Of a stretch of 64,000 bases of DNA, positions 29,169 to 64,000 are shown piece after piece. Origin of the DNA: Azoarcus sp. CIB (lineage in GTDB: Bacteria; Pseudomonadota; Gammaproteobacteria; Burkholderiales; Rhodocyclaceae); contig NZ_CP011072.1 of assembly GCF_001190925.1 (NCBI RefSeq), positions 2,976,001 through 3,040,000 of the forward strand, written 5' to 3'. Under the pieces are notes generated by a model. The model was given only the letters and a program-made list of their open reading frames with translations. It was not told the DNA's origin and ran no database searches. The position numbers were made by a program, and so were the translations under genes. How positions within the stretch are numbered: the stretch's first letter is position 1; each line of letters starts with the position of its first letter.

Positions 29169-29184
29169 TGGCACAGCGGTTGCG
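29169..29184 (+). promoter_or_regulatory. sigma-54 (-24/-12) promoter of the phenol operon
   Basis: TGGCAC-N5-TTGC with exactly ten bases between the GG and GC doublets. It lies 74 bases before the first pps gene, on the plus strand. Confidence 0.88.
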
Positions 29185-51095: not shown

Positions 51096-53876
51096 CTAAT
51101 GCAGCGTTCCTGCCATTGACGGCAGCACGCAGCCCCCGTCGCGGATCATCCCGGCGAACTCGGCGGCGGGAATCGCACGGCTGCACAGGAAGCCCTGCAT
51201 CTCGTCGCAGCGGTGGCGGCGCAGGAAGTCGAGCTGCGCCACGGTCTCGACGCCTTCGGCGACGACGGTCTGGTTGAGGCTGTGGGCGAGCGAGATAACC
51301 ATGCGGGCGATCGCGGCGTCCTCCGAAGACGTCGTGAGGTCGGCGACGAAGGACTGGTCGATCTTGACGCTGTCGATGAGGAAGCGCTTGAGGTAGTTCA
51401 GGCTGGAATAGCCAGTGCCGAAGTCGTCGAGCGAGACCAGCACGCCGATGTCCTTGAGCGTGCGCAGGATCACGATGGTGCGCTCCGGGTTGCTCATCAC
51501 GCCGCTCTCGGTGACTTCGAGGTGCAGGCTCCGCGCGGGCACCCCGGACGAACGCAAGGCCTCGCCCAGCACGCCGACGAGATCCTCCTGCTGGAACTGC
51601 CGCGCCGAGACATTGACCGCGACGCTGACACCCGTGAGCCCTTCCTCGCGCCAGGCCTTCAGCTGGCGGCACGCGGTGTTGATGACCCATTCGCCGATCG
51701 GCACGATGAGACCCGTTTCCTCGGCCAGCGGGATGAAATCGGCCGGCGACACCATGCCCAGCACCGGATGGCGCCAGCGGATCAGCGCCTCGGCGCCGAC
51801 CACGCGCCCGTTGGTGAGCTCGACCTTGGGCTGGTAGTGCAGTTCCAGCTCGCCCTGGTCGAGCGCCCGGCGCAGGCCGTTTTCGAGTTCCAGGCGTTCG
51901 AGCATGCGTGCGTTCATCTCGGGCGCGTAGAAGCGGAAGTCGTTGCGCCCCTGCTCCTTCGCGCGGTACATCGCGACGTCGGCATTCTTCACCAGCAGGG
52001 CCGCCGATTCGCCGTCGCGCGGAAACAGCGCGACGCCCAGGCTGCCGGTGACGACGATCTCGTGGCCCGACAGCTTCATCGGCGCCGACACGCGCTGCAG
52101 CACCTTGGCCGCGAGCGAGGCGGCATCGCTTTCGGCCCACAGCTCGGACATGACGATCATGAACTCGTCGCCGCCGAGGCGCGCCACGGTGTCGCCCTGG
52201 CGCACGCAGGCCGCGAGGCGCCGCGCCACCTCGCAGATCAGTTCGTCGCCGACGGCATGGCCGAGGCTGTCGTTGATCAGCTTGAAGCGGTCGAGGTCGA
52301 GCAGCATCACGGCCACCGCGCCGGCGTTGCGCTGCGCGCGGATCATCGACTGCTGCAGGCGGTCGTTGAGCAGGTTGCGGTTGGCGAGTCCGGTCAGGGC
52401 GTCGTGGTTGGCCTGCTGTTCGAGCTCCGCCTCATAGCGCTTGCGGTCGGTGAGGTCGTTGAAGATCGAGATGAAGTGCGACACGCGCCCGCTCGGGTCG
52501 TGCATCGACGCGAGCGAGATCTCGTTCCAGAACAGCGAACCGTCCTTGCGGTAGCAGCGCAGCGTGACCCGGGCATCGCGCCCGCGGCGCACCGCCTCGC
52601 GCAGACGCTCGATGTCGGGCTGGTCCCAGTCGTCGCCGACCAGCAGGCGCGTGTTGCGCCCGATGATCTCCTCGGGCGCATAGCCGGTCATCAGCGTGAA
52701 GGCGGGGTTCACGTACAGCACCGGGTTATCGGCCTCGCGGTCGGCCGCGCTGATCACGATGGCGTTGATGCTCTCGTCGATGGCACGGTTGCGCAGGCGC
52801 AGCGTCTCCTCGGTGCGCTGCTGCACGACGCGCGCGCGCAGCGTGTGGATGCCGTAGGCGATGTCGTCCGCCAGCTCGCCGAGCAGCTCGAGCTCGTCCC
52901 CATCGAAGGCTTCCTTCTCGCGCGTGACGATGCACAGCACGCCGAAAGTCTCATGCTCGAATACGAGGGGCAGCACCGCGGCCGCCTGGAAGCCGCGTCC
53001 GAGTGCCGCCTCGCGCCAGCGCACAAGGCGCGGGTCCGACGCGATGTCGTGCACGACCTGCGGTGCGCGCGTGCGCACCGCCTCGCCCACCGGGCCGTTG
53101 CCACAAGCGTTGTCGCCCCACGAAAAGCGGAAGGATTTCAGCAGGCTGGCCCCCTCGCCCGCGGCGGCGACCGTCTCCACGGTGCAGTCGGCGTCGTGCC
53201 ACGCCAGGCTCACCCACGCGATGCCGTAGTTCCCGAGCTCGATGAGGAAGCGGCACATGTCCGCGAGCAGCCGCCGCTCGTCGGTGGCGCGCACCAGCGT
53301 GCGGTTGCACTCGGCCATCACGTTGCGCGCGCGCAGCACACGCCGCAGCTGCGCCTCGGCGAGCTTGCGGGTCTCGACCTCGCCCGCGAGATCCGCGGCG
53401 CGGCGTTCGAGCTCCTCGGCCTTGGCGGCGAGCTTGTCGGTGAGCACGCGCAAATGCTCGCGCTCGAATTCGGCATCGCTCGCGGGCGGCAGTTCCTTCA
53501 CCGCCTGGCGGAGCGTGTCGTCGATGGCGCGCACGATGTCATCGGGGTTGCAGGGCTTCACGAGGATGCGCGACACGCCGAGGATGCCGGCGAGGTTGCG
53601 CACTTCGCGCTCGTGGTAATTGGCCGTATAGAAGACCACCGGCGTATCGGCGATCGCCGGATCCGCACGCAGCCGGCGCACGAACTCGTAACCGTCCACG
53701 TTGGGCATGAGGATGTCGCAGATGACCAGCTGCGGACGCTGCGCCCGCACGATGGCGAGCCCTTCGGCGCCGTCGCCCGCCTCCAGCGCCTCGTGCCCCT
53801 CGTAGCCAGCCAGGGCCACGATGAGTTCGCGATTCGCGGCATGGTCGTCTATGACAAGAATCTTCGCCATCGGCAC
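51096..53876 (-). CDS. receiver-GAF-PAS-GGDEF-EAL c-di-GMP protein
   Basis: A 926-residue cytoplasmic regulator. Domains: receiver (about 1-125; phospho-acceptor Asp in LVICDILMPNVDG), a coiled-coil linker, GAF (about 190-345), PAS (about 365-480), GGDEF (about 490-645; intact LGGDEF) and EAL (about 660-910; intact GAEALIRW, with DDFGTGYSSLNYLK). It can in principle make and degrade c-di-GMP; the receiver should control the balance. It is the last gene of an operon with a kinase and a stand-alone receiver. Starts at 53876 or 53870. Confidence 0.9.
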   Translation of the reverse strand: MPMAKILVIDDHAANRELIVALAGYEGHEALEAGDGAEGLAIVRAQRPQLVICDILMPNVDGYEFVRRLRADPAIADTPVVFYTANYHEREVRNLAGILGVSRILVKPCNPDDIVRAIDDTLRQAVKELPPASDAEFEREHLRVLTDKLAAKAEELERRAADLAGEVETRKLAEAQLRRVLRARNVMAECNRTLVRATDERRLLADMCRFLIELGNYGIAWVSLAWHDADCTVETVAAAGEGASLLKSFRFSWGDNACGNGPVGEAVRTRAPQVVHDIASDPRLVRWREAALGRGFQAAAVLPLVFEHETFGVLCIVTREKEAFDGDELELLGELADDIAYGIHTLRARVVQQRTEETLRLRNRAIDESINAIVISAADREADNPVLYVNPAFTLMTGYAPEEIIGRNTRLLVGDDWDQPDIERLREAVRRGRDARVTLRCYRKDGSLFWNEISLASMHDPSGRVSHFISIFNDLTDRKRYEAELEQQANHDALTGLANRNLLNDRLQQSMIRAQRNAGAVAVMLLDLDRFKLINDSLGHAVGDELICEVARRLAACVRQGDTVARLGGDEFMIVMSELWAESDAASLAAKVLQRVSAPMKLSGHEIVVTGSLGVALFPRDGESAALLVKNADVAMYRAKEQGRNDFRFYAPEMNARMLERLELENGLRRALDQGELELHYQPKVELTNGRVVGAEALIRWRHPVLGMVSPADFIPLAEETGLIVPIGEWVINTACRQLKAWREEGLTGVSVAVNVSARQFQQEDLVGVLGEALRSSGVPARSLHLEVTESGVMSNPERTIVILRTLKDIGVLVSLDDFGTGYSSLNYLKRFLIDSVKIDQSFVADLTTSSEDAAIARMVISLAHSLNQTVVAEGVETVAQLDFLRRHRCDEMQGFLCSRAIPAAEFAGMIRDGGCVLPSMAGTLH

Positions 53877-53882
53877 GCATCC

Positions 53883-54293
53883 TCACGGGTCGGCGGGCGG
53901 ACCGGCCTTGCGCCGTCCGGCCTTCAGGTAGGCTTCGACCTCGCTGACGAAGGTCTCTGGAACGATGGGCTTGGAGATGTAGCCGTCGAAGCCCGCGAGC
54001 ATCACCCGAGTCTGGTCGCCCGACATCGAGAACGCTGTGACCGCGATCACGGGGACGTCGTTCAGCGCGACGTCCATGCGGATGTGTCGAAGCATTTCGA
54101 AGCCGTCCATCACCGGCATGCGCAGGTCGCTGACGATGAGGTCGGGAGGCGGCTCCTTGCGGGCGAGTTCCAGCCCCTGCCGGCCGTCCTCGGCGATCAG
54201 CACGATGTGCCCGGCCGCTTCGAGCAGGTAGCTGACGAGTTCGAGGTTCGCCGGGTTGTCCTCGACGAGGAGAATGCGCGCCGTCACGGTCAT
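53883..54293 (-). CDS. stand-alone response regulator receiver protein
   Basis: A 136-residue CheY-like protein. The acidic pair is in LLVEDNPANLEL, the phospho-acceptor Asp in LIVSDLRMPVMDG, and the conserved Lys in GYISKPIVPE. No output domain. It overlaps the kinase gene by four bases and is six bases from the GGDEF-EAL gene, so it probably relays phosphoryl groups between them or acts as a sink. Confidence 0.9.
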   Translation of the reverse strand: MTVTARILLVEDNPANLELVSYLLEAAGHIVLIAEDGRQGLELARKEPPPDLIVSDLRMPVMDGFEMLRHIRMDVALNDVPVIAVTAFSMSGDQTRVMLAGFDGYISKPIVPETFVSEVEAYLKAGRRKAGPPADP

Positions 54294-55777
54294 CCCTCCG
54301 GCAACACGAGCGCGAAGGTGCTGCCGACCCCCGGCACGCTCTCGACGGTGATCCGGCCGCCCATCTGCCCGGCGAGCTTCTGGCTCAGGTGCAGCCCGAG
54401 GCCGGTTCCCTCGGCAAACTTGCCGCTGCGCGGCGTGATGCGCGCGAACGGGGCGAACAGGCGCTGCAGGTCCTCCTCGCCGATGCCCACGCCGGTGTCG
54501 CGGACGCTGACCTCGACCAGCGCACGCTCACCCTCCATGCGCCGCGCGAGCCGGATCGTGACGCCTCCGCGCTCGGTGAACTTGATCGCGTTCTGCACCA
54601 GGTTGATGAGGATCTGACTGAAGGCGCGCCGGTCGGTCGCCAGCTGCAAGGGCTCGACGACGACCTCGATCGCGAACGCCAGTCCCTTCCCTTCCGCCCC
54701 CGGGCGCAGCGTCGCCGCCACGTCCTCCACGACCGCCCGGCAATCCAGGGGTTCGACCACCAGCTCGACCTTGCCGGCCTCGATCTTCGCGATGTCGAGC
54801 AGATCGTTGATGAGCTCGAGCAGATGCTGGCCGCCGGACTGGACGCGGCGCAGCTGCCTTTCCTGCACCTCGGTCAGAGGCCCCGGCAGCTTCATCAGCA
54901 GCGTTCCGGTGAAGCCGATGATCGCGTTGAGCGGCGTGCGCAGTTCGTGGCTCATGCTCGCGAGGAAGCGGTCCTTCGCGGCGTTGGCCTTTGCGAGCTC
55001 GACGTTCTTCTCGTGCAGCGCACGCTCGATGCGCTTGCGTTCAGTGATGTCGCGGATCGCACTGGTCACCAGCGTGCCCTCCCCCGTCTCCAGCGGACTG
55101 AGTCCGATCTCGACCGGAAACTCGCTGCCGTCCTGTCGCAGGCCGTACAGCTCCAGCCCCATGCCCATCGCCCGCGTGCGCAGTTGACCGAAGTAGGCCG
55201 AACGATGCGCGACATGCCCGCCGCGCAGGCGCTCGGGCAGCAGCACTTCCACCGGCAGGCCGCGCAGGCGCCCCGCCGCGTAGCCGAATAGGGCCTCGGC
55301 CTGGCTGTTCGCGAACACGATGCGCCCCGACGCGTTGATCAGCACGATGCCGTCGGGCATCGACTCCAGCAGCTTGCTGTAACGGGCGTCGACGAGTTTC
55401 GCGTCGCGCATCACCTTGAGTTGCGTGACGTCCTTCTCACACACGATCAGGTACTGCGGCCGTCCCTGGCTGTCGCGTACCGTCTTCGCGCTGATCGAGA
55501 CGAAGACCAGTGAACCGTCCTTGCAGCGCCGCAGCGATTCGATCGCGGCGAAGCCCGTTTCCAGCGCCTCGCACCGCATGCCGCGCTCCTCGTCCGCGCG
55601 GTCGGCGGGCACGATGAGGTCGAGCAGGTCCCGCCCCACGACCTCGTTCGCCGCGTAACCGAAGATGGCTTCGGCGCTCCTGCTCCAGTGCAGGACGATC
55701 CCCTCCGGCGATTGCACCACGAATGCATCGGGCGCCTCGTCCAGCAGGAGACCGCAAACGTCCATCGCCATGAGCAC
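54290..55777 (-). CDS. PAS-PAS hybrid-type sensor histidine kinase
   Basis: A 495-residue soluble kinase. Two PAS domains (about 5-130 and 135-255), each with the VLHWSRSAEAIFGYAANE- or RIVFANSQAEALFGYAAG-type pattern. The HisKA domain has the phospho-acceptor His in FLASMSHELRTPLNAIIGFTG. The ATPase domain has the N box LINLVQNAIKFTE and G boxes (VRDTGVGIGEEDL, GTGLGLHLSQ). It heads the three-gene signalling operon. Its signal is cytoplasmic and unknown. ATGs at 55777 and 55771 are both possible. Confidence 0.88.
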   Translation of the reverse strand: MLMAMDVCGLLLDEAPDAFVVQSPEGIVLHWSRSAEAIFGYAANEVVGRDLLDLIVPADRADEERGMRCEALETGFAAIESLRRCKDGSLVFVSISAKTVRDSQGRPQYLIVCEKDVTQLKVMRDAKLVDARYSKLLESMPDGIVLINASGRIVFANSQAEALFGYAAGRLRGLPVEVLLPERLRGGHVAHRSAYFGQLRTRAMGMGLELYGLRQDGSEFPVEIGLSPLETGEGTLVTSAIRDITERKRIERALHEKNVELAKANAAKDRFLASMSHELRTPLNAIIGFTGTLLMKLPGPLTEVQERQLRRVQSGGQHLLELINDLLDIAKIEAGKVELVVEPLDCRAVVEDVAATLRPGAEGKGLAFAIEVVVEPLQLATDRRAFSQILINLVQNAIKFTERGGVTIRLARRMEGERALVEVSVRDTGVGIGEEDLQRLFAPFARITPRSGKFAEGTGLGLHLSQKLAGQMGGRITVESVPGVGSTFALVLPEG

Positions 55778-57399: not shown

Positions 57400-59598
57400 T
57401 CAGCGCTTGGTTTTCTGCCGCTGCAGCTGGTCGACGTAGGCGAAGTAATCGGCGACCAGTTCCGGCAGGTGGCAGGACGAGAAGTAGCCTGCGAGCCCCC
57501 AGGGCCGCAGCGCCGGGTTGTCCGCACTCCCCGGCACGATCACCGCGGCGGCGAATTCGCGATCGGGCTCGGCTTCGAGGCGCTTGCACAGCAGATCGGG
57601 TAGCGGCTCGGCCGACGGGTAGCGGATCGCACAGTCACAGCCGGAGTAGTCCGAACTGCACACGAGGTGGAAGCGGATGCCGCTGGCGACATCATCGGCG
57701 TCGAAGAATTCGGCCCGTCGCTCCCACACCTGGCGCAGCAGCTGCAAGCTGTTCTCGACGACCGCGCGGCGCTGGAAGCGCAGGGCTGCGGGATCGGAGA
57801 CGTTCGCATGCACGAACACCGGCAGCAGATCCTCCCACAGGCGTGCGTCGCCGACGCGCACCCGCTGGCTCGCGTTCTCGGGCCACGGCGGATAACACTT
57901 GCGACGCAGCAGGCGCGGCCCGACGTCGGGGTCGGACGGATCGGGCTTGCCGACCGCGACGAGGTACATCATCCACAGGTAGGCGGAAAAGTAGACGCGC
58001 GTCTCGTCGACCTCGCGATCGACCTGTTCCAGTTGCAGCACGAGTCCGTCCGAATGATGCGCGTGGCCGGGTCCCTCGCCACACCACAGACTGGCCTGTG
58101 CGGCGGCCATCGGATACTTGCGCGGCTGCAACTCCTCCTCGCTGTCGTCACGGTCCAGCTCGTCGATCAGGTCGCGCGGCGCGTCGTCGGCCGGGAAATC
58201 GAGGCCCTTGTCCCCTTCCTCGCCTAGGAAATGCGGCCCCCAGCGCAGGCGTCCGGTCAGCTGCACGAGTTTCGCGCTACGGCCGGCGGCAGCGAGATCG
58301 GCGACCAACGGCCCCAGCTTGCGCGGTTCGCCGCTCTCGTCCTCGTCGATCTCGATCAGCGGCAGCGAATTGTTCTCGTCGCCATAGCCATACTGATACG
58401 CGAACTTGCCCTGCCACTGCGCGCATCGGCAGATCGGGATGCTCGGCCCCCACACCAGCCAGCAGTTCCATTGCGAGGCCTGCAGGCTCTCGAAGGCGCC
58501 GGAGCGTACCGCGGCCTTGGGTATCGAGTGCTGATACGCGTTGAGCACCGGCCGCCAGTCGTCCTCGAAATGCGACAGCAGCCCGGCGACGAGGAACTGC
58601 GGCGCGACGAAGCCGAGGTTGACGCGGATGCGACACAGGGTCGCGAGCTGGTCCGGGGGTGGCGCATTGCGCGCGACGCGTTCGATGGTGTCGAAGTACG
58701 TCTCCCACAAGGCCTCGCGTTCGCGCGCCAACATGAAGAACAGCGAATTCACCTCGACCACGCTGCCGCTGAAGTCGCCGTTTCGCGCACCGCGCTTCAA
58801 CTCGCCGGCGAGCCGGCGCGCGGTATCGCTGACCTCGAGTCCGTCGAGCGTTTCCTGCAATGCCCGCGCGGAGGTCGGCGCCTCGGAGCGCAGCAACTGG
58901 TACTCGATGAAGAGCCGCAGCGCACTGAACAGCGGCTCGCCCGAAAGATCGCAGAACGTCCCCAGCCGCTCGACGACCTGGCCGGCGAACTCCTCTCGCG
59001 CCTCGCTGCGCATCTCCTGCAGCAAGGTCGCCGCGAGCAGCGCGGCGGCGGCCTTCGCATGCATCTCGTCATCGTCGGCGGCCGACGGCCCCGCATGCGC
59101 ATTCCGTCCCGCAGCGGCATCCCCGAGAAGTCCGGCAATCTCGACCATCAGGTTGCTGAGGTGGCGATTCACGGTCGTCGACGTTTCCTTGCCGAATTCG
59201 GCGAGCGCCTTGATCTTCTTCGTTTTCTCGTTCCGCACCTTGGGCCGAATATCCGTGTCCTTCAGCCAGCCTATCGCCTCCCATGCGCAGGGAATGATCT
59301 GAACGGGAATCACGCGCAAGCCCTTTTCGGAGCGCGCCAGCAGCTTTGGCAGTTCGGTCTTGCGAATGAAGTTCGAACTGAGGAAGGACGGGCTGATGAG
59401 GAGGATGGCGAGGTCCGCACTGGCCAGTGCAGCCTCGATCTCAGGCAGCCACTTGTCACCGGCACGGATGCGGTTGCGGTCGAGCCAGACATCCATCTCG
59501 ATCGGGTCATGGAGGCCCTGCAGATGTTTCACGACGACGTCGCACCAGCTGTCGTCCTCGCGGCTGTAGCTGACGAACACGTGCGTAGTCTGGCTCAT
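57400..59598 (-). CDS. TIR-domain protein with large unknown C-terminal region
   Basis: A 732-residue soluble protein. The TIR domain spans about 5-150: HVFVSYSREDDSW (box 1), WLPEIEAALASADLAILLISPSF and SSNFIRKTELPKL, where Glu82 lies at the position of the catalytic Glu of TIR NADases. Residues ~160-732 match nothing I can name; there is a Glu/Asp-rich patch near 500. It is upstream of, and coupled to, the GNAT gene. It is divergent from the peptide cluster, 322 bases apart. It could be a defence effector or a signalling NADase. The start at 59598 is chosen because the TIR fold begins there. Confidence 0.82.
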   Translation of the reverse strand: MSQTTHVFVSYSREDDSWCDVVVKHLQGLHDPIEMDVWLDRNRIRAGDKWLPEIEAALASADLAILLISPSFLSSNFIRKTELPKLLARSEKGLRVIPVQIIPCAWEAIGWLKDTDIRPKVRNEKTKKIKALAEFGKETSTTVNRHLSNLMVEIAGLLGDAAAGRNAHAGPSAADDDEMHAKAAAALLAATLLQEMRSEAREEFAGQVVERLGTFCDLSGEPLFSALRLFIEYQLLRSEAPTSARALQETLDGLEVSDTARRLAGELKRGARNGDFSGSVVEVNSLFFMLAREREALWETYFDTIERVARNAPPPDQLATLCRIRVNLGFVAPQFLVAGLLSHFEDDWRPVLNAYQHSIPKAAVRSGAFESLQASQWNCWLVWGPSIPICRCAQWQGKFAYQYGYGDENNSLPLIEIDEDESGEPRKLGPLVADLAAAGRSAKLVQLTGRLRWGPHFLGEEGDKGLDFPADDAPRDLIDELDRDDSEEELQPRKYPMAAAQASLWCGEGPGHAHHSDGLVLQLEQVDREVDETRVYFSAYLWMMYLVAVGKPDPSDPDVGPRLLRRKCYPPWPENASQRVRVGDARLWEDLLPVFVHANVSDPAALRFQRRAVVENSLQLLRQVWERRAEFFDADDVASGIRFHLVCSSDYSGCDCAIRYPSAEPLPDLLCKRLEAEPDREFAAAVIVPGSADNPALRPWGLAGYFSSCHLPELVADYFAYVDQLQRQKTKR

Positions 59599-59779
59599 CG
59601 CCCCCCCCCACCCCGTTACGGTCACCTATTGATCACGATAGACCAAGCGCGCAGCGCTGCCGATCCGCATGGGTGTTGCCCACGGACAGACAGGGATGCC
59701 GCAATGTGTTCGGCGTTACCCGTCAGTTACCCGCGGCACGTTGCAGTTGCACGACCAGACTTCTTGGTAAAACGCATAT

Positions 59780-59831: not shown

Positions 59832-59847
59832 TGGCACGCCCCCTGCA
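59832..59847 (+). promoter_or_regulatory. sigma-54 (-24/-12) promoter of the peptide operon
   Basis: TGGCAC-N5-CTGCA with exactly ten bases between the GG and GC doublets. It lies 73 bases before the first leader-peptide gene and is correctly oriented. Confidence 0.85.
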
Positions 59848-59920: not shown

Positions 59921-60214
59921 ATGAAAACCCTGACCATCAACGACCTGCCGATGACCGAAGAACTGGGCCGCGAGGCAATGAGCGAAGTGCGCGGCGGCAT
60001 GCACGCGATGTACTACACGCCCTTCTACTGGGGGGGCTACGTCGATGCCTCCACGACGAACGAGTCGTTCAGCGCCCTGCAGCAGATCAATCAGGGACAA
60101 AGTGTGGCGACCAACGTCGGCAACAACGTCGCCGTGCTGGCCGGGATCGCGTCCCCGTCAGTGCCGGTCACCGCGACGCAGAACGCCAACATCAACAACC
60201 ACGTCCACTTCTGA
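59921..60214 (+). CDS. double-glycine leader peptide precursor 1
   Basis: A 97-residue precursor. The leader is exactly 26 residues (start MKTLTINDLP, end EVRGG), followed by a 71-residue core. The core opens with aromatic residues (MHAMYYTPFYWGGY) and continues Asn/Val/Ala/Gln-rich to NNHVHF, with no Cys. The leader shares Ile6, Asp8-Leu9, Leu15 and Gly25-Gly26 with the three following peptides. Cleavage after GG by the peptidase part of an ABC exporter is expected by family logic. The aaggagag ribosome site is strong. First gene after the sigma-54 promoter. Confidence 0.85.
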   Translation: MKTLTINDLPMTEELGREAMSEVRGGMHAMYYTPFYWGGYVDASTTNESFSALQQINQGQSVATNVGNNVAVLAGIASPSVPVTATQNANINNHVHF

Positions 60215-60229
60215 ACGCAACCGAATCAT

Positions 60230-60251
60230 GTGGAGGCCCCCGGGCCTCCAC
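60230..60251 (+). other. hairpin between peptide genes 1 and 2
   Basis: Ten-base arms GTGGAGGCCC and GGGCCTCCAC with a two-base loop, 16 bases after the first peptide stop. There is no T-tract, so it may be a processing or partial-termination site that sets the ratio of the peptides. Confidence 0.65.
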
Positions 60252-60280
60252 CGATCCAACCCAATACGAGGAGCACTACC

Positions 60281-60547
60281 ATGTCGTCGATCATGATTCG
60301 CGATCTGGCCCTGAGCAAGGAACTCGACAGCGGCGAAATGTCAGCCGTTCGCGGAGGCGCGCTGGGGCCCGTCGCACACCTTCCCTTCGCAAACGTGAAC
60401 GTCAATGTCGGCATCAATCAGACGATCGCACAATTCCAGAATATCCAGGTCAATGCCCTCAACAACGTGGGCGTGATCGGGGCCGATTTCGGCTTCGAAC
60501 TGGACCTGAATGCGGCGCAGATCGCAAACCCGGTCATCGCAATCTAG
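60281..60547 (+). CDS. double-glycine leader peptide precursor 2
   Basis: An 88-residue precursor with the same 26-residue leader type (MSSIMIRDLA to SAVRGG). The 62-residue core is unusually rich in Asn, Val, Ile, Gln and Ala (NVNVNVGINQTIAQFQNIQV) with no Cys, Lys or Arg, and ends in VIAI. Such composition suggests beta-strand assembly or membrane insertion rather than a lanthipeptide. The ATG at 60281 follows acgaggagc; an in-frame ATG at 60230 lies in the hairpin and is unlikely. Confidence 0.85.
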   Translation: MSSIMIRDLALSKELDSGEMSAVRGGALGPVAHLPFANVNVNVGINQTIAQFQNIQVNALNNVGVIGADFGFELDLNAAQIANPVIAI

Positions 60548-60553
60548 GGCAAC

Positions 60554-60570
60554 GGAGGCCCGCGGCCTCC
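60554..60570 (+). other. hairpin after peptide gene 2
   Basis: Arms GGAGGCC and GGCCTCC with a three-base loop, seven bases after the stop. The arm sequence is the same GGAGGCC core as in the hairpin at 60230. Confidence 0.65.
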
Positions 60571-60653
60571 TTGTCGATCAGAGGGTCGAATCGCGTGACC
60601 TATACTGAACCATCGTCGATCGCCACCCCAAGCACTTACCGTCAGGAAAAACC

Positions 60654-60857
60654 ATGGCCACCATCGTTATCAAGGACTTGCCGGAAAACATGGACCTCGA
60701 TCGCGAAGCGATGCAGGCAATCACCGGAGGCGCGCGTCTGCGCGCCAGTCCGGCTGCCTCGGTCCGCGCCCCCCGCTTTCCCGAGCTGTCGCGTAACGCC
60801 GGAGCCGGGAGGTCCGAGACGCGGCGGCGTCCCGCGATGAGCACGCTGTTCAAATAA
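60654..60857 (+). CDS. double-glycine leader peptide precursor 3 (Arg-rich core)
   Basis: A 67-residue precursor. The 26-residue leader (MATIVIKDLP to QAITGG) matches its neighbours in length and key residues. The 41-residue core is cationic: about eleven Arg and one Lys, with Ala, Pro and Ser (ARLRASPAASVRAPRF near the start), quite unlike cores 1, 2 and 4. A cationic antimicrobial-like or partner peptide is possible. The ribosome site is caggaaa, weaker than for the others. Confidence 0.78.
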   Translation: MATIVIKDLPENMDLDREAMQAITGGARLRASPAASVRAPRFPELSRNAGAGRSETRRRPAMSTLFK

Positions 60858-60911
60858 CGCCTGCACACCGAAGCCGACCGCCCTGATCGACATCGAATCC
60901 GGAGAAATATC

Positions 60912-61196
60912 ATGTCCGCCATCGCCATCCACGACCTCAGCATGAATCGCGATCTGGATCGCGCCGCCCTGGCGTCCATCAAGGGCGGCGGCGCGCCGTG
61001 GGTCTACGGCTGGATCCGCCCCTTTGTGTCGTCCCAGCCCAGCTTCGGCCGGTCGGTGAACTACTACCAGATCAGCAACACGTTCGTCGCCGACCAGATG
61101 GTCAATCAGTTCCAGGTCATCGACATCACGAACACGGCCGCCAACTCGACGATCAGCGTCGGCGTGGGCGCAGACGGCAACGCGCTGAAGCAGTAG
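60912..61196 (+). CDS. double-glycine leader peptide precursor 4
   Basis: A 94-residue precursor. The leader (MSAIAIHDLS to ASIKGG, 26 residues) keeps the pattern with Leu in place of Met20. The 68-residue core starts with aromatic residues (GAPWVYGWIRPF), like core 1, and goes on with Asn/Val/Gln/Thr-rich sequence to GNALKQ. No Cys. The ribosome site is ccggagaa. The PP2C gene starts 28 bases later. Confidence 0.83.
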   Translation: MSAIAIHDLSMNRDLDRAALASIKGGGAPWVYGWIRPFVSSQPSFGRSVNYYQISNTFVADQMVNQFQVIDITNTAANSTISVGVGADGNALKQ

Positions 61197-61224: not shown

Positions 61225-61992
61225 TTGACCGGCCCAACTCCGATTCGCTGGACCTCCGCCGCACGCTGCCACGTCGGGCTGGTGCGGGAGGTCAATGAGG
61301 ACTCCTTTCTCGACCGCCCCGAGCGCGCGCTCTGGGCGGTCGCAGACGGCATGGGCGGGCACGACGCGGGCGACCTCGCGAGCGGCATGGTGGTCGCCAC
61401 GCTGGACGGTCTGCCCGCCTTCTCGAGCCTGACGAACCTCGTCGACGCGGCACGCGAGCGGCTGCAGGACGTCAACCGCCGGCTTCGCGCGGAGGCGCTG
61501 ATGCGCGATGTCTCGATCATCGGCAGCACGGTCGTCGCCCTGCTCGCGTGCGAACGCTACGGCGCCTACCTGTGGGCGGGCGACAGCCGGATCTACCTGT
61601 ATCGCAAAGGCAGGCTCACCCTGCTCAGCCGCGACCACAGCACACTCGAGGAACTCCGGGCGCGCGGCTTTCCGGTTGGCAACGATGCGCTGCAACCCGG
61701 TCACAACCTGATCACGCGCGCGGTGGGTGCCGTCGACGTCCTCGAACTCGATCAGGGCGCGGTCGTGGTCGGCGACGGCGACATCTTCCTGCTGTGCAGC
61801 GACGGACTGAGCAATCTGGTGAGCGAGGACGACATCCGCGACAACCTTGCCACGGGCGACTGCCGCCAGGCGGCCGACGCGCTGGTCGACCTCGCCCTGA
61901 AAGGCGGCGGGCACGACAATATCACCGCCGTCGTCGTCCGTGCCGAAGACCCCGACTGCTCGGACATGACCGTGCTGAATCCGGCGCTGTAA
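61225..61992 (+). CDS. PP2C-type serine/threonine phosphatase
   Basis: A 255-residue PPM phosphatase of the Stp1/PppA type. The metal-binding motifs are visible: VREVNEDSF, VADGMGGHDAGD, WAGDSRIYLYR, CSDGLSNLV and GGHDNITAVVV. The start codon is TTG at 61225 behind a ggggag ribosome site. It follows the fourth peptide gene in the same orientation and is probably in the same transcript. It implies that a Ser/Thr phosphorylation step controls the locus; no kinase is visible in the window. Confidence 0.9.
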   Translation: MTGPTPIRWTSAARCHVGLVREVNEDSFLDRPERALWAVADGMGGHDAGDLASGMVVATLDGLPAFSSLTNLVDAARERLQDVNRRLRAEALMRDVSIIGSTVVALLACERYGAYLWAGDSRIYLYRKGRLTLLSRDHSTLEELRARGFPVGNDALQPGHNLITRAVGAVDVLELDQGAVVVGDGDIFLLCSDGLSNLVSEDDIRDNLATGDCRQAADALVDLALKGGGHDNITAVVVRAEDPDCSDMTVLNPAL

Positions 61993-62037: not shown

Positions 62038-63339
62038 TCAGTTGCCCCCCTCGCCGCGCGAGGAATTCCCTTTGCGGAAGTCCTTCGAGTGGATGCCGTG
62101 CTTCTTCAACAGCGTCTGCAGGTGCGACCGGTTCATGTCGCAGCGGCGGGCCAGTTCGGCCACCGTTCCGCCCACCTGCTCCAGCCCGCGTTCCAGGAAC
62201 TGCTTCTCGGCTTCGTCGCTCGCGACCCGCTTGGCGTCGCTGAGCGAGATCGCTTCCGCCGCGGCGGCCACGCCGGCCACGGGGGCAGTCGCCGCTGGCG
62301 ACACCGCGGGCGCGGGCCGGATGTCGGGCGGCAGGTGTTCGAGATCGGCCGTTTCGCCGGCGAGACAGGACAGGCGATAGATCAGATTGCGCAGCTCGCG
62401 GATGTTGCCGGGATAGCGGTAGCGCAGCAGGAAGTCGCGCAAGCGCGACGACATCTTGATCGGCCGGCGCTTGAGCGCTTCCGCCGCCTCATCGCCGAAG
62501 AAGGCGAACAGCAGCGGGATCTCGTCCCGGCGCTCGCGCAGCGGCGGCAGGGTCAGGTGGATGACGCTGAGGCGATAGAACAGGTCCTCGCGGAAGGTCC
62601 CCTCCTCGCTCAGGCGCCGCAGGTTGCGGTTGGTCGCGGCGACGATGCGCGCGTCCACCGCGATCGGCTCGTCGGAACCGACGCGCTGGATCTCGTGCGA
62701 TTCCAGCACCCGCAACAGCTTCACCTGCCCGGGCAACGGCAGTTCGCCGATCTCGTCGAGGAAGATGGTGCCGGTGTGGGCGCTCTCGAACTTGCCCTTG
62801 CGGTCGCTGACGGCGCCCGTGAATGCGCCCTTGCGGTGGCCGAAGAGTTCGGATTCCAGCAGGTTTTCCGGAATTGCGCCGCAGTTCACCGAGATGTAGG
62901 GCTTGTCCGGGCGCGAACCGTTGGCGTGGATGACCTTCGCCATCAACTCCTTGCCGGTGCCGCTCTCACCGTCGATCAGCACGGGCAGGTCGGTCGGCGC
63001 GGCCTTCTCGGCGATCTCCAGGGCTTCGAGGAGCTGCGGATTGTCGCCGAACGCGCCTTCGAATACGAAGCTGCGATCGAGCAAGGCGCGCCGCCGCGCA
63101 CCGGGCGCCAGATCCGCGGGCGCAGCCTCGGTCGCCGCCGCCTGCACGAAGCGTTCCTTGTGCGACAGCTGCATGACCTCGTCGCGCAGCGTGTTCGCCT
63201 GGCGCAGCAGTTTCTCGATCTCGGGCCGCGCAAGGGTCGACGCCCAGCGCAGCGTCGAGCGCAGGATCTCGATCTTCTCCAGCAGTCCCGCGTAGGAGAT
63301 CGCCGAACTGCCGCGCGAACCGGGGGCCAGGATCTTCAT
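62038..63339 (-). CDS. sigma-54-dependent activator of the peptide locus
   Basis: A 433-residue enhancer-binding protein without a receiver domain. The N-terminal ~95 residues are a short helical region of unknown signal. The AAA+ domain has Walker A GESGTGKE, GAFTGA in HRKGAFTGAVSDR and Walker B GTIFLDEIGELP. The Fis-type helix-turn-helix is VAELARRCDMNRSHLQTLLK. Its start overlaps the exporter stop (ATGA), so regulator and exporter are co-transcribed. It converges on the PP2C gene. The obvious target is the -24/-12 promoter at 59832. Confidence 0.88.
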   Translation of the reverse strand: MKILAPGSRGSSAISYAGLLEKIEILRSTLRWASTLARPEIEKLLRQANTLRDEVMQLSHKERFVQAAATEAAPADLAPGARRRALLDRSFVFEGAFGDNPQLLEALEIAEKAAPTDLPVLIDGESGTGKELMAKVIHANGSRPDKPYISVNCGAIPENLLESELFGHRKGAFTGAVSDRKGKFESAHTGTIFLDEIGELPLPGQVKLLRVLESHEIQRVGSDEPIAVDARIVAATNRNLRRLSEEGTFREDLFYRLSVIHLTLPPLRERRDEIPLLFAFFGDEAAEALKRRPIKMSSRLRDFLLRYRYPGNIRELRNLIYRLSCLAGETADLEHLPPDIRPAPAVSPAATAPVAGVAAAAEAISLSDAKRVASDEAEKQFLERGLEQVGGTVAELARRCDMNRSHLQTLLKKHGIHSKDFRKGNSSRGEGGN

Positions 63340-64000
63340 GCCGCCGCCAGCTGTTTCTGCACCAGTTGGTAATACATGCCCTGGCGCGCGACAAGCTCGT
63401 CGTGCCGCCCCTGCTCGACGATTGCCCCTTCGTACAGCACCAGGATCTTGTCGGCGCGCATGATCGTCGACAGCCGGTGCGCGATGATCACCGCGGTGCG
63501 CCCCTTGAGGATCTCCTGCATGTTGCCGATGATGTTGCTTTCCGACTGGGTATCCAGGGCGGACGTCGCCTCGTCGAACACCAGCAGGCGGGGATCGTGG
63601 TACAGCGCGCGGGCGATGCACAGGCGCTGGATCTGCCCGCCCGAGAGCCCCATCCCGCGCTCGCCGACGATCTGCTCGTAGCCCAGCGGCAGCTTGCGGA
63701 TGAAGGCATGCGCATCGGCCATCTTCGCCACTTCCTCGATGCGCCGGCGGTCCGGGGTCTCGTCACCGCTGGCGATGTTCTCGGCAATGGTCCCCGAGAA
63801 CAGCAGGTTGCTCTGCATCACGTAGCCGACCTGGGCGCGGTAGTACTCCTTGTCGATCACGCTCATGTCGTAGCCGTCGACCACGATGCGCCCGTCCGAC
63901 GGCGGGTAGAAACCGACCAGCAGCTTCGCCAGGGTCGTCTTGCCCGAGCCGCTGCGGCCGACGATGGCGATCAGTTCGCCCGGCTTGATGTCGAAGCTGA
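63336..64000 (-). CDS. ABC exporter ATPase domain, cut by window edge
   Basis: The C-terminal ~221 residues of an ABC exporter; the 5' part lies beyond 64000. Walker A GRSGSGKTT is visible close to the edge, followed by Q loop YVMQSNLLFSG, signature MGLSGGQIQR, Walker B LLVFDEATSALD and IIAHRLST. The sequence is of the type I secretion/bacteriocin exporter kind (HlyB/LagD-like). With GG-leader peptides nearby, an N-terminal C39 peptidase domain is expected but cannot be seen here. Confidence 0.85.
   Translation of the reverse strand, partial: SFDIKPGELIAIVGRSGSGKTTLAKLLVGFYPPSDGRIVVDGYDMSVIDKEYYRAQVGYVMQSNLLFSGTIAENIASGDETPDRRRIEEVAKMADAHAFIRKLPLGYEQIVGERGMGLSGGQIQRLCIARALYHDPRLLVFDEATSALDTQSESNIIGNMQEILKGRTAVIIAHRLSTIMRADKILVLYEGAIVEQGRHDELVARQGMYYQLVQKQLAAA

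Follow-up and report, generated by a model that had tools for sequence, protein, structure and literature searches.

A predicted sigma-54-controlled type I export locus for families of small double-glycine proteins in Azoarcus sp. CIB and other Burkholderiales

The genome of Azoarcus sp. CIB carries a locus, of a kind present in numerous soil bacteria, that almost certainly combines dedicated export of small double-glycine proteins with control by sigma-54. On balance, we favour the view that the proteins exported by this dedicated type I system assemble outside the cell, and an extracellular structural role of the exported cores is likewise the somewhat better guess. An amyloid-type fibre is a tentative interpretation, and a slightly more tentative one is a functional fibre new in kind, present across the Burkholderiales, with Q/N-rich subunits, one-step C39 export, a kinase-phosphatase-FHA gate and its own sigma-54 activator. 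The products look more like surface or biofilm building blocks than like antibiotics. That C39 type I systems export small double-glycine proteins is known; the substrate families are new and the double control is unusual. No description of the locus was found in the PMC literature, a scope outside of which preprints and most subscription papers lie.

Precursor genes and organization of the locus

The window, that is the whole stretch of DNA analysed, comprises 64,000 nucleotides (bases 2976001-3040000 of the 5.26 Mb one-contig genome), and the locus extends beyond its end. Table 1 gives an overview of the features within the window.

Table 1 Features of the double-glycine protein locus within the window (positions count from the first base of the window)
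Feature	Position	Strand	Remarks
Putative upstream activator site 1	59674..59692	+	degenerate TGTTGG-N7-CCAACA, 1 + 2 mismatches, by eye
Putative upstream activator site 2	59707..59725	+	degenerate dyad, 1 + 2 mismatches, by eye
Sigma-54 (-24/-12) promoter TGGCACGCCCCCTGCA	59832..59847	+	89 bp upstream of precursor 1
Precursor 1, type A	59921..60214	+	leader 59921-59998 (26 residues), Q/N-rich core of 71 residues
Precursor 2, type B	60281..60547	+	leader 26 residues, core 62 residues
Precursor 3, type C	60654..60857	+	leader 26 residues, basic core of 41 residues
Precursor 4, type D	60912..61196	+	leader 26 residues, core 68 residues (GAPWVYGWIRPF...)
PP2C-type Ser/Thr phosphatase	61225..61992	+	PP2C_2 E 3.5e-11
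Sigma-54 activator	62038..63339	-	AAA+ domain (Sigma54_activat E 1.9e-69), Fis-type HTH
C39-ABC exporter, C-terminal part	63336..64000	-	1023 aa in full, remainder past the window edge

A preliminary description of this DNA had reported four tandem genes whose leaders are all exactly 26 residues long and close with Gly-Gly. These genes, all on the plus strand, are real and were correctly placed, and their core lengths (71, 62, 41 and 68 residues) and the absence of Cys from all four cores were confirmed; in the wider precursor set described below, Cys is present in 16 of 99 type A cores. Alignment of the four leaders agrees with the reported invariance of Ile6, Asp8, Leu9 and Leu15 and shows M1, G25 and G26 to be invariant as well. 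A profile built from the four leaders matched the 5.26 Mb genome at eight places (E <= 1e-3): the four window precursors themselves (E 8e-16 to 7e-14), three further genes at the opposite end of the locus (E 3e-15 to 7e-14) and one orphan (E 2.2e-4). Thus, the locus holds seven precursors and not the set of four originally described.

The locus is built from two convergent runs, each of which opens with type A precursors behind a sigma-54 promoter. The plus-strand run contains precursors A, B, C and D and ends with the PP2C phosphatase gene. On the minus strand, three A precursors are followed by genes for an FHA-GAF-HD-GYP protein, a TolC-like protein, a protein with two FHA domains, HlyD, a parvulin without a signal peptide (by eye), the C39-ABC exporter and, at the end of this exporter run, the sigma-54 activator, in which a domain scan revealed no receiver domain. 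Past the three A precursors lie genes for a Ser/Thr kinase (plus strand) and an FGE-like protein (minus strand). The exporter comprises two cNMP-binding domains, a Peptidase_C39 domain (E 5.4e-40) and the ABC parts. The earlier statement that no known maturase is encoded nearby holds for RiPP maturases, none of which was recognised among the locus proteins scanned. It does not hold for the leader peptidase, which is part of the exporter and had been missed because it forms the N-terminal half of the ABC protein, only the end of which lies inside the window.

A TIR-domain protein (window 57400-59625, minus strand; TIR_2 E 5.8e-15) is encoded divergently from precursor 1 and is weakly similar to Thoeris and FxsC proteins (NCBIfam). 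It was considered as a part of the system and dropped, as the gene occurs in three of nine sister loci of the genus and in one of the best 80 of 207 loci described below. Long response-regulator and sensor-kinase-like frames occupy window 51096-55777 (minus strand); they measure 926, 136 and 495 aa, and the 926-aa frame has GGDEF/EAL-like stretches by eye.

Distribution of the locus

The gene order PP2C, activator, ABC, parvulin, HlyD, FHA, TolC, HD-GYP, kinase is conserved in all nine sister loci of the genus. Precursors are found at the PP2C end in nine of nine and at the HD-GYP end in four, with a 33-aa fragment in a fifth. Two shortened precursors of 33 and 60 aa in sister loci (L044:17283, minus strand, and L048:1622, plus strand) are remnants or frameshifted copies.

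The leader profile and a parvulin profile picked the same 10 of 17 genomes of the genus and the same 3 of 349 genomes of the order (own genome included). In a class sample of 369 genomes, own included (leader E <= 1e-4, parvulin E <= 1e-20), G000, G526 and G559 gave both leader matches and strong parvulin matches (E 1e-107 or better); the leader matches of G559 and G526 lie on contigs other than that of the exporter. A weak leader match without parvulin in G568 is an exception to strict co-occurrence. Weak parvulin matches (E 1e-23 to 3e-26) were obtained in G496, G595, G608 and G691, in which relatives of the sigma-54 activator, HlyD and the full-length C39-ABC protein lie together (22-48% identity). 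Distant class-level genomes (L176, L177, L178 and L179) have genes for a sigma-54 activator, parvulin, HlyD and C39-ABC together, and no precursor was recognised on the contigs of the more distant exporters L174-L179. L176-L179 may represent a wider family of such exporters.

A wider collection contained 207 parvulin relatives among 250 pattern matches, and the best 80 of these 207 were kept. They stem from Aromatoleum, Cupriavidus, Burkholderia, Paraburkholderia, Trinickia, Noviherbaspirillum, Herbaspirillum, Massilia, Duganella, Pandoraea and Ralstonia, among others. Some of the best 80 of 207 loci are truncated, either by the end of a contig or by the limit of the flank. Among these 80, the numbers with each gene were as follows: parvulin 80, C39-ABC 79, activator 76, FHA 69, HlyD 69, TolC 68, PP2C 67, precursors 67, FGE-like 59, kinase 38, HD-GYP 4 and TIR 1. 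Seven of the 13 loci without a precursor match have full flanks. With four occurrences among the best 80 of 207 loci, the HD-GYP gene is apparently a feature of Aromatoleum.

Promoters and upstream dyads

Sister loci have the promoter element of Table 1 at the same distance from the precursor. The pattern TGGCAYRN4YTGCD occurs 89 times in the best 80 of 207 loci, and 82 of these sites precede the start of a same-strand precursor by 55-104 bp. A near-identical promoter pattern has two matches in the window (59832 and 29169), a number reached by 3 of 100 shuffles. The second sigma-54-like site (window 29169-29183, plus strand, TGGCACAGCGGTTGC) compares with 0.30 matches expected by chance.

TGTTGG (either strand) is present in 57 of 73 non-redundant promoter-upstream regions versus 6.5 expected. 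When one mismatch was allowed per half, the dyad TGTTGG-N7-CCAACA was found in 43 of the 73 regions, while any other spacer from 0 to 19 gave at most 3; several regions contain two dyads about 33 bp apart. The window dyads were placed by eye so that their distance matches that of the dyad elsewhere, site 2 being 125 bp before the -24 element. The locus thereby has a -24/-12 promoter, putative upstream activator sites and an activator gene, as expected for a sigma-54 regulon.

Core families

The iterated leader profile gave 265 matches in 81 of 94 loci (the best 80 of 207 and 14 earlier ones). After removal of 37 precursors with a score under 18 or from seven duplicate loci, 228 were typed by simple rules and by eye as A (101), D (67), C (24), B (19) and A2 (11), leaving 6 unclassed. 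Their leaders have 26 residues in 209 cases, 27 in 14 and 28 in 5, and end in GG (205) or GA (23). Mean pairwise identities of leader and core are 0.65 and 0.35 for A, 0.61 and 0.45 for B, and 0.74 and 0.29 for C. For these types the core is less conserved, as in the proposed pattern of a conserved leader plus a variable core; type D departs from it, with 0.52 for the leader and 0.56 for the core (45 sequences). Most of the 228 precursors fall into conserved types. The idea of hypervariable cores was dropped.

The four cores had also been described as unrelated in appearance, which applies to type C only. Core profiles were built from 56 of 75 non-redundant A cores, 17 of 17 B, 24 of 24 D and 17 of 23 C cores and compared with 100 column shuffles, none of which reached the score of A-B (28.2, shuffle maximum 14.5), A-D (22.2, maximum 15.8) or B-D (25.6, maximum 23.8, reversed profile 17.9). 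The type C profile showed no similarity to A, B or D under the same control. Common descent of the A, B and D cores is likely according to these profiles, and short of proof because B-D exceeds its shuffle maximum by little and richness in N and Q is common to the profiles.

A Q...Q.[QN] stretch is present in 74 of 101 A, 19 of 19 B and 60 of 67 D cores and in none of the 11 A2 and 24 C cores (shuffle means 3.9, 1.4, 3.3, 1.1 and 0.1, respectively, a contrast that the shuffles flatter because the cores are related in sequence). N and Q make up 20-24% of the A, B and D cores and charged residues 6-11%, compared to 6% and 25% in other proteins of the locus. Beta-like alternation exceeds that of shuffles in A, B and D and not in A2 or C. 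Within Aromatoleum, core dN/dS (4 to 7 sequences each) was 0.22 for B, 0.22 for D and 0.23 and 0.31 for two sets of A; leader values were 0.35-0.51, except for C (0.04). By these ratios, the A, B and D cores are under purifying selection.

Pfam and NCBIfam scans of the precursors gave nothing above cut-off, and the 97 cores scanned had no convincing match to curli or other Pfam families. Spacing of the Q/N-X10-Q/N kind is enriched in B and D and not in A. A place among curli/Fap is not supported: there was no Pfam curlin match and the spacing is not general. AlphaFold2 yielded no confident monomer for the A core (pLDDT 50.5, pTM 0.13) or the D core (pLDDT 52.5, pTM 0.18).

Comparison with known systems and proposed function

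The precursors have the GG (or GA) leader of C39 type I substrates next to an encoded C39-ABC exporter, and the C39-ABC, HlyD and sigma-54 neighbour genes strongly support the earlier suggestion that they are secreted double-glycine proteins. Class II microcins and Cdz proteins likewise combine a GG leader with C39-ABC, HlyD and TolC; unlike them, the present locus has conserved core families and no immunity gene next to a precursor. The domain order cNMP-binding, C39, ABC is shared with HetC-type exporters, which probably differ in substrates and locus.

By gene arrangement, the locus resembles that of Synechococcus elongatus, where EbfG1-4 are described as four tandem small GG-motif proteins and PteB as the C39 ABC exporter needed for their secretion (PMC4997328, PMC9981879). 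Both loci have tandem small GG proteins, several related subunits and a C39 ABC exporter. According to the same accounts, EbfG proteins serve biofilm and EbfG1-3 form amyloid; the control by sigma-54, kinase, phosphatase and FHA proteins would distinguish the present locus from EbfG/PteB as described there (PMC4997328, PMC9981879). Control by threonine phosphorylation through PpkA-PppA-Fha is described for type VI secretion (PMC10482370). Here, too, a membrane kinase, a PP2C phosphatase and an FHA protein are encoded beside a secretion machine, in this case a C39 exporter of type I. Fap and curli, as described in PMC6173800, have small Q/N-rich major and minor subunits with Q/N-X10-Q/N spacing, and Fap includes the C39-like protein FapD. 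The present subunits are also small and Q/N-rich, but their export is of type I with a GG leader, Pfam curlin does not match and type A lacks the spacing.

We propose that the sigma-54 activator would bind the upstream TGTTGG-N7-CCAACA dyads and thereby co-activate precursors and exporter. The C39 domain of the ABC protein would cleave the leader after GG, and the ABC, HlyD and TolC-like proteins would carry the core out in one step, while the parvulin probably holds the cores export-competent. By analogy to PpkA, PppA and Fha in type VI secretion, the exporter is probably gated by phosphorylation through the kinase, the phosphatase and the FHA proteins. Outside the cell, the A, B and D cores, rich in Q/N and weakly charged, may co-assemble to a surface or matrix structure, perhaps fibrous, with A as the abundant subunit, B and D as minor or nucleating subunits and C as a basic accessory peptide. 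Extracellular assembly is suggested by the composition, the beta-like alternation of A, B and D, the several related subunits of which one is expanded, and the Synechococcus precedent. Composition and alternation would also fit amyloid fibres. Points against the proposal are that AlphaFold2 lends it no structural support, that Pfam curlin and the general Q/N-X10-Q/N spacing were not found, that the B-D similarity is slight, that 13 of the best 80 of 207 loci lack a precursor match, that G568 has a weak leader match and no parvulin, and that type C is basic and faster-changing.

Small double-glycine proteins are habitually filed as bacteriocins. As a large and coherent proteobacterial locus with conserved substrate families, one exporter and two control layers, the present one is a candidate counterexample. 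If its products build a matrix or fibre, it represents a way of making extracellular assemblies by type I secretion and, if the gating is true as well, a tractable system for possible phosphorylation gating of a type I exporter.

Alternative functions of the products

The main rival, which we regard as unlikely, is that the cores act jointly on competitors as multi-component class II bacteriocins, microcins or Cdz-like contact-dependent killing proteins. The GG leader with a C39 exporter, as in class II microcins, and the several peptides per locus are in line with killing. Intergenic gaps, read by hand, are about 110 bp or less except for the 352-bp divergent promoter region, so that the locus has no gene-sized unassigned room for an immunity gene adjoining the precursors; a missing immunity gene is nevertheless compatible with killing, as immunity may be encoded at a distance. 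With a mean net charge of +5.6, type C is basic, and its core changes faster than the other types (dN/dS 0.56), and for these reasons killing stays the main rival. Against it stand the A, B and D cores, which are Q/N-rich with few charges and conserved across genera under apparent purifying selection. The filing under bacteriocins, microcins or RiPPs in the preliminary description is unsupported: the core families are conserved from genus to genus, an immunity gene would find no gene-sized gap, and no known RiPP maturase was recognised among the locus genes, although these include one for an FGE-like protein.

It is improbable that the products serve as secreted signals which the producing cell perceives through its own kinase. 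Elsewhere, several GG peptides do act as signals, and the kinase gene, whose product has a likely extracytoplasmic C-terminal part, adjoins precursors; however, cores that are 60-70 residues long and present as several paralogues suit structural subunits better, and no receptor family was recognised. Least probable is a RiPP system in which the cores are exported after modification of their residues by the FGE-like or the parvulin-like protein: an FGE-sulfatase-domain protein in 59 of the best 80 of 207 loci, with PvdO as its best NCBIfam relative (152, far below the cut-off of 500), a parvulin with a distant likeness to TIGR04500 ('putative peptide maturation system protein'; 78 bits against a cut-off of 180) and aromatic residues conserved in D cores point to it, but FGE-like domains accompany kinases elsewhere, the locus proteins scanned include no known RiPP maturase, and the cores are long and without conserved Cys.

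Orphan leader genes

Homologues without exporter neighbours had been named beforehand as evidence against secretion. In the main, the opposite was observed, as the exporter adjoins precursors in all nine sister loci and in 67 of the best 80 of 207; leaders apart from an exporter do exist, namely as a weak match in G568 (without parvulin) and as orphans, which occur in 8 of the 10 locus-bearing genomes of the genus and in 0 of the 7 others. In the window genome, the orphan is a protein of 73 aa that shares the GG leader but differs in its core (RGGIWDYSNRLG..., L012:9433-9654, minus strand). It also occurs in L049, L050, L052, L053, L054 and L055, only in locus-bearing genomes of the genus, in varying neighbourhoods; no constant partner was seen among the seven neighbourhoods read. 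This distribution fits orphans that are exporter substrates served in trans. A 1992-aa frame with GGxGxD-like repeats (RTX-like by eye; L012:3252-9230, plus strand) is convergent with the orphan of the window genome and does not adjoin it in the other genomes read. A second orphan of 63 aa with a GG leader (RGGSIYVDGQYW..., L051:5017, plus strand) was found in one genome.
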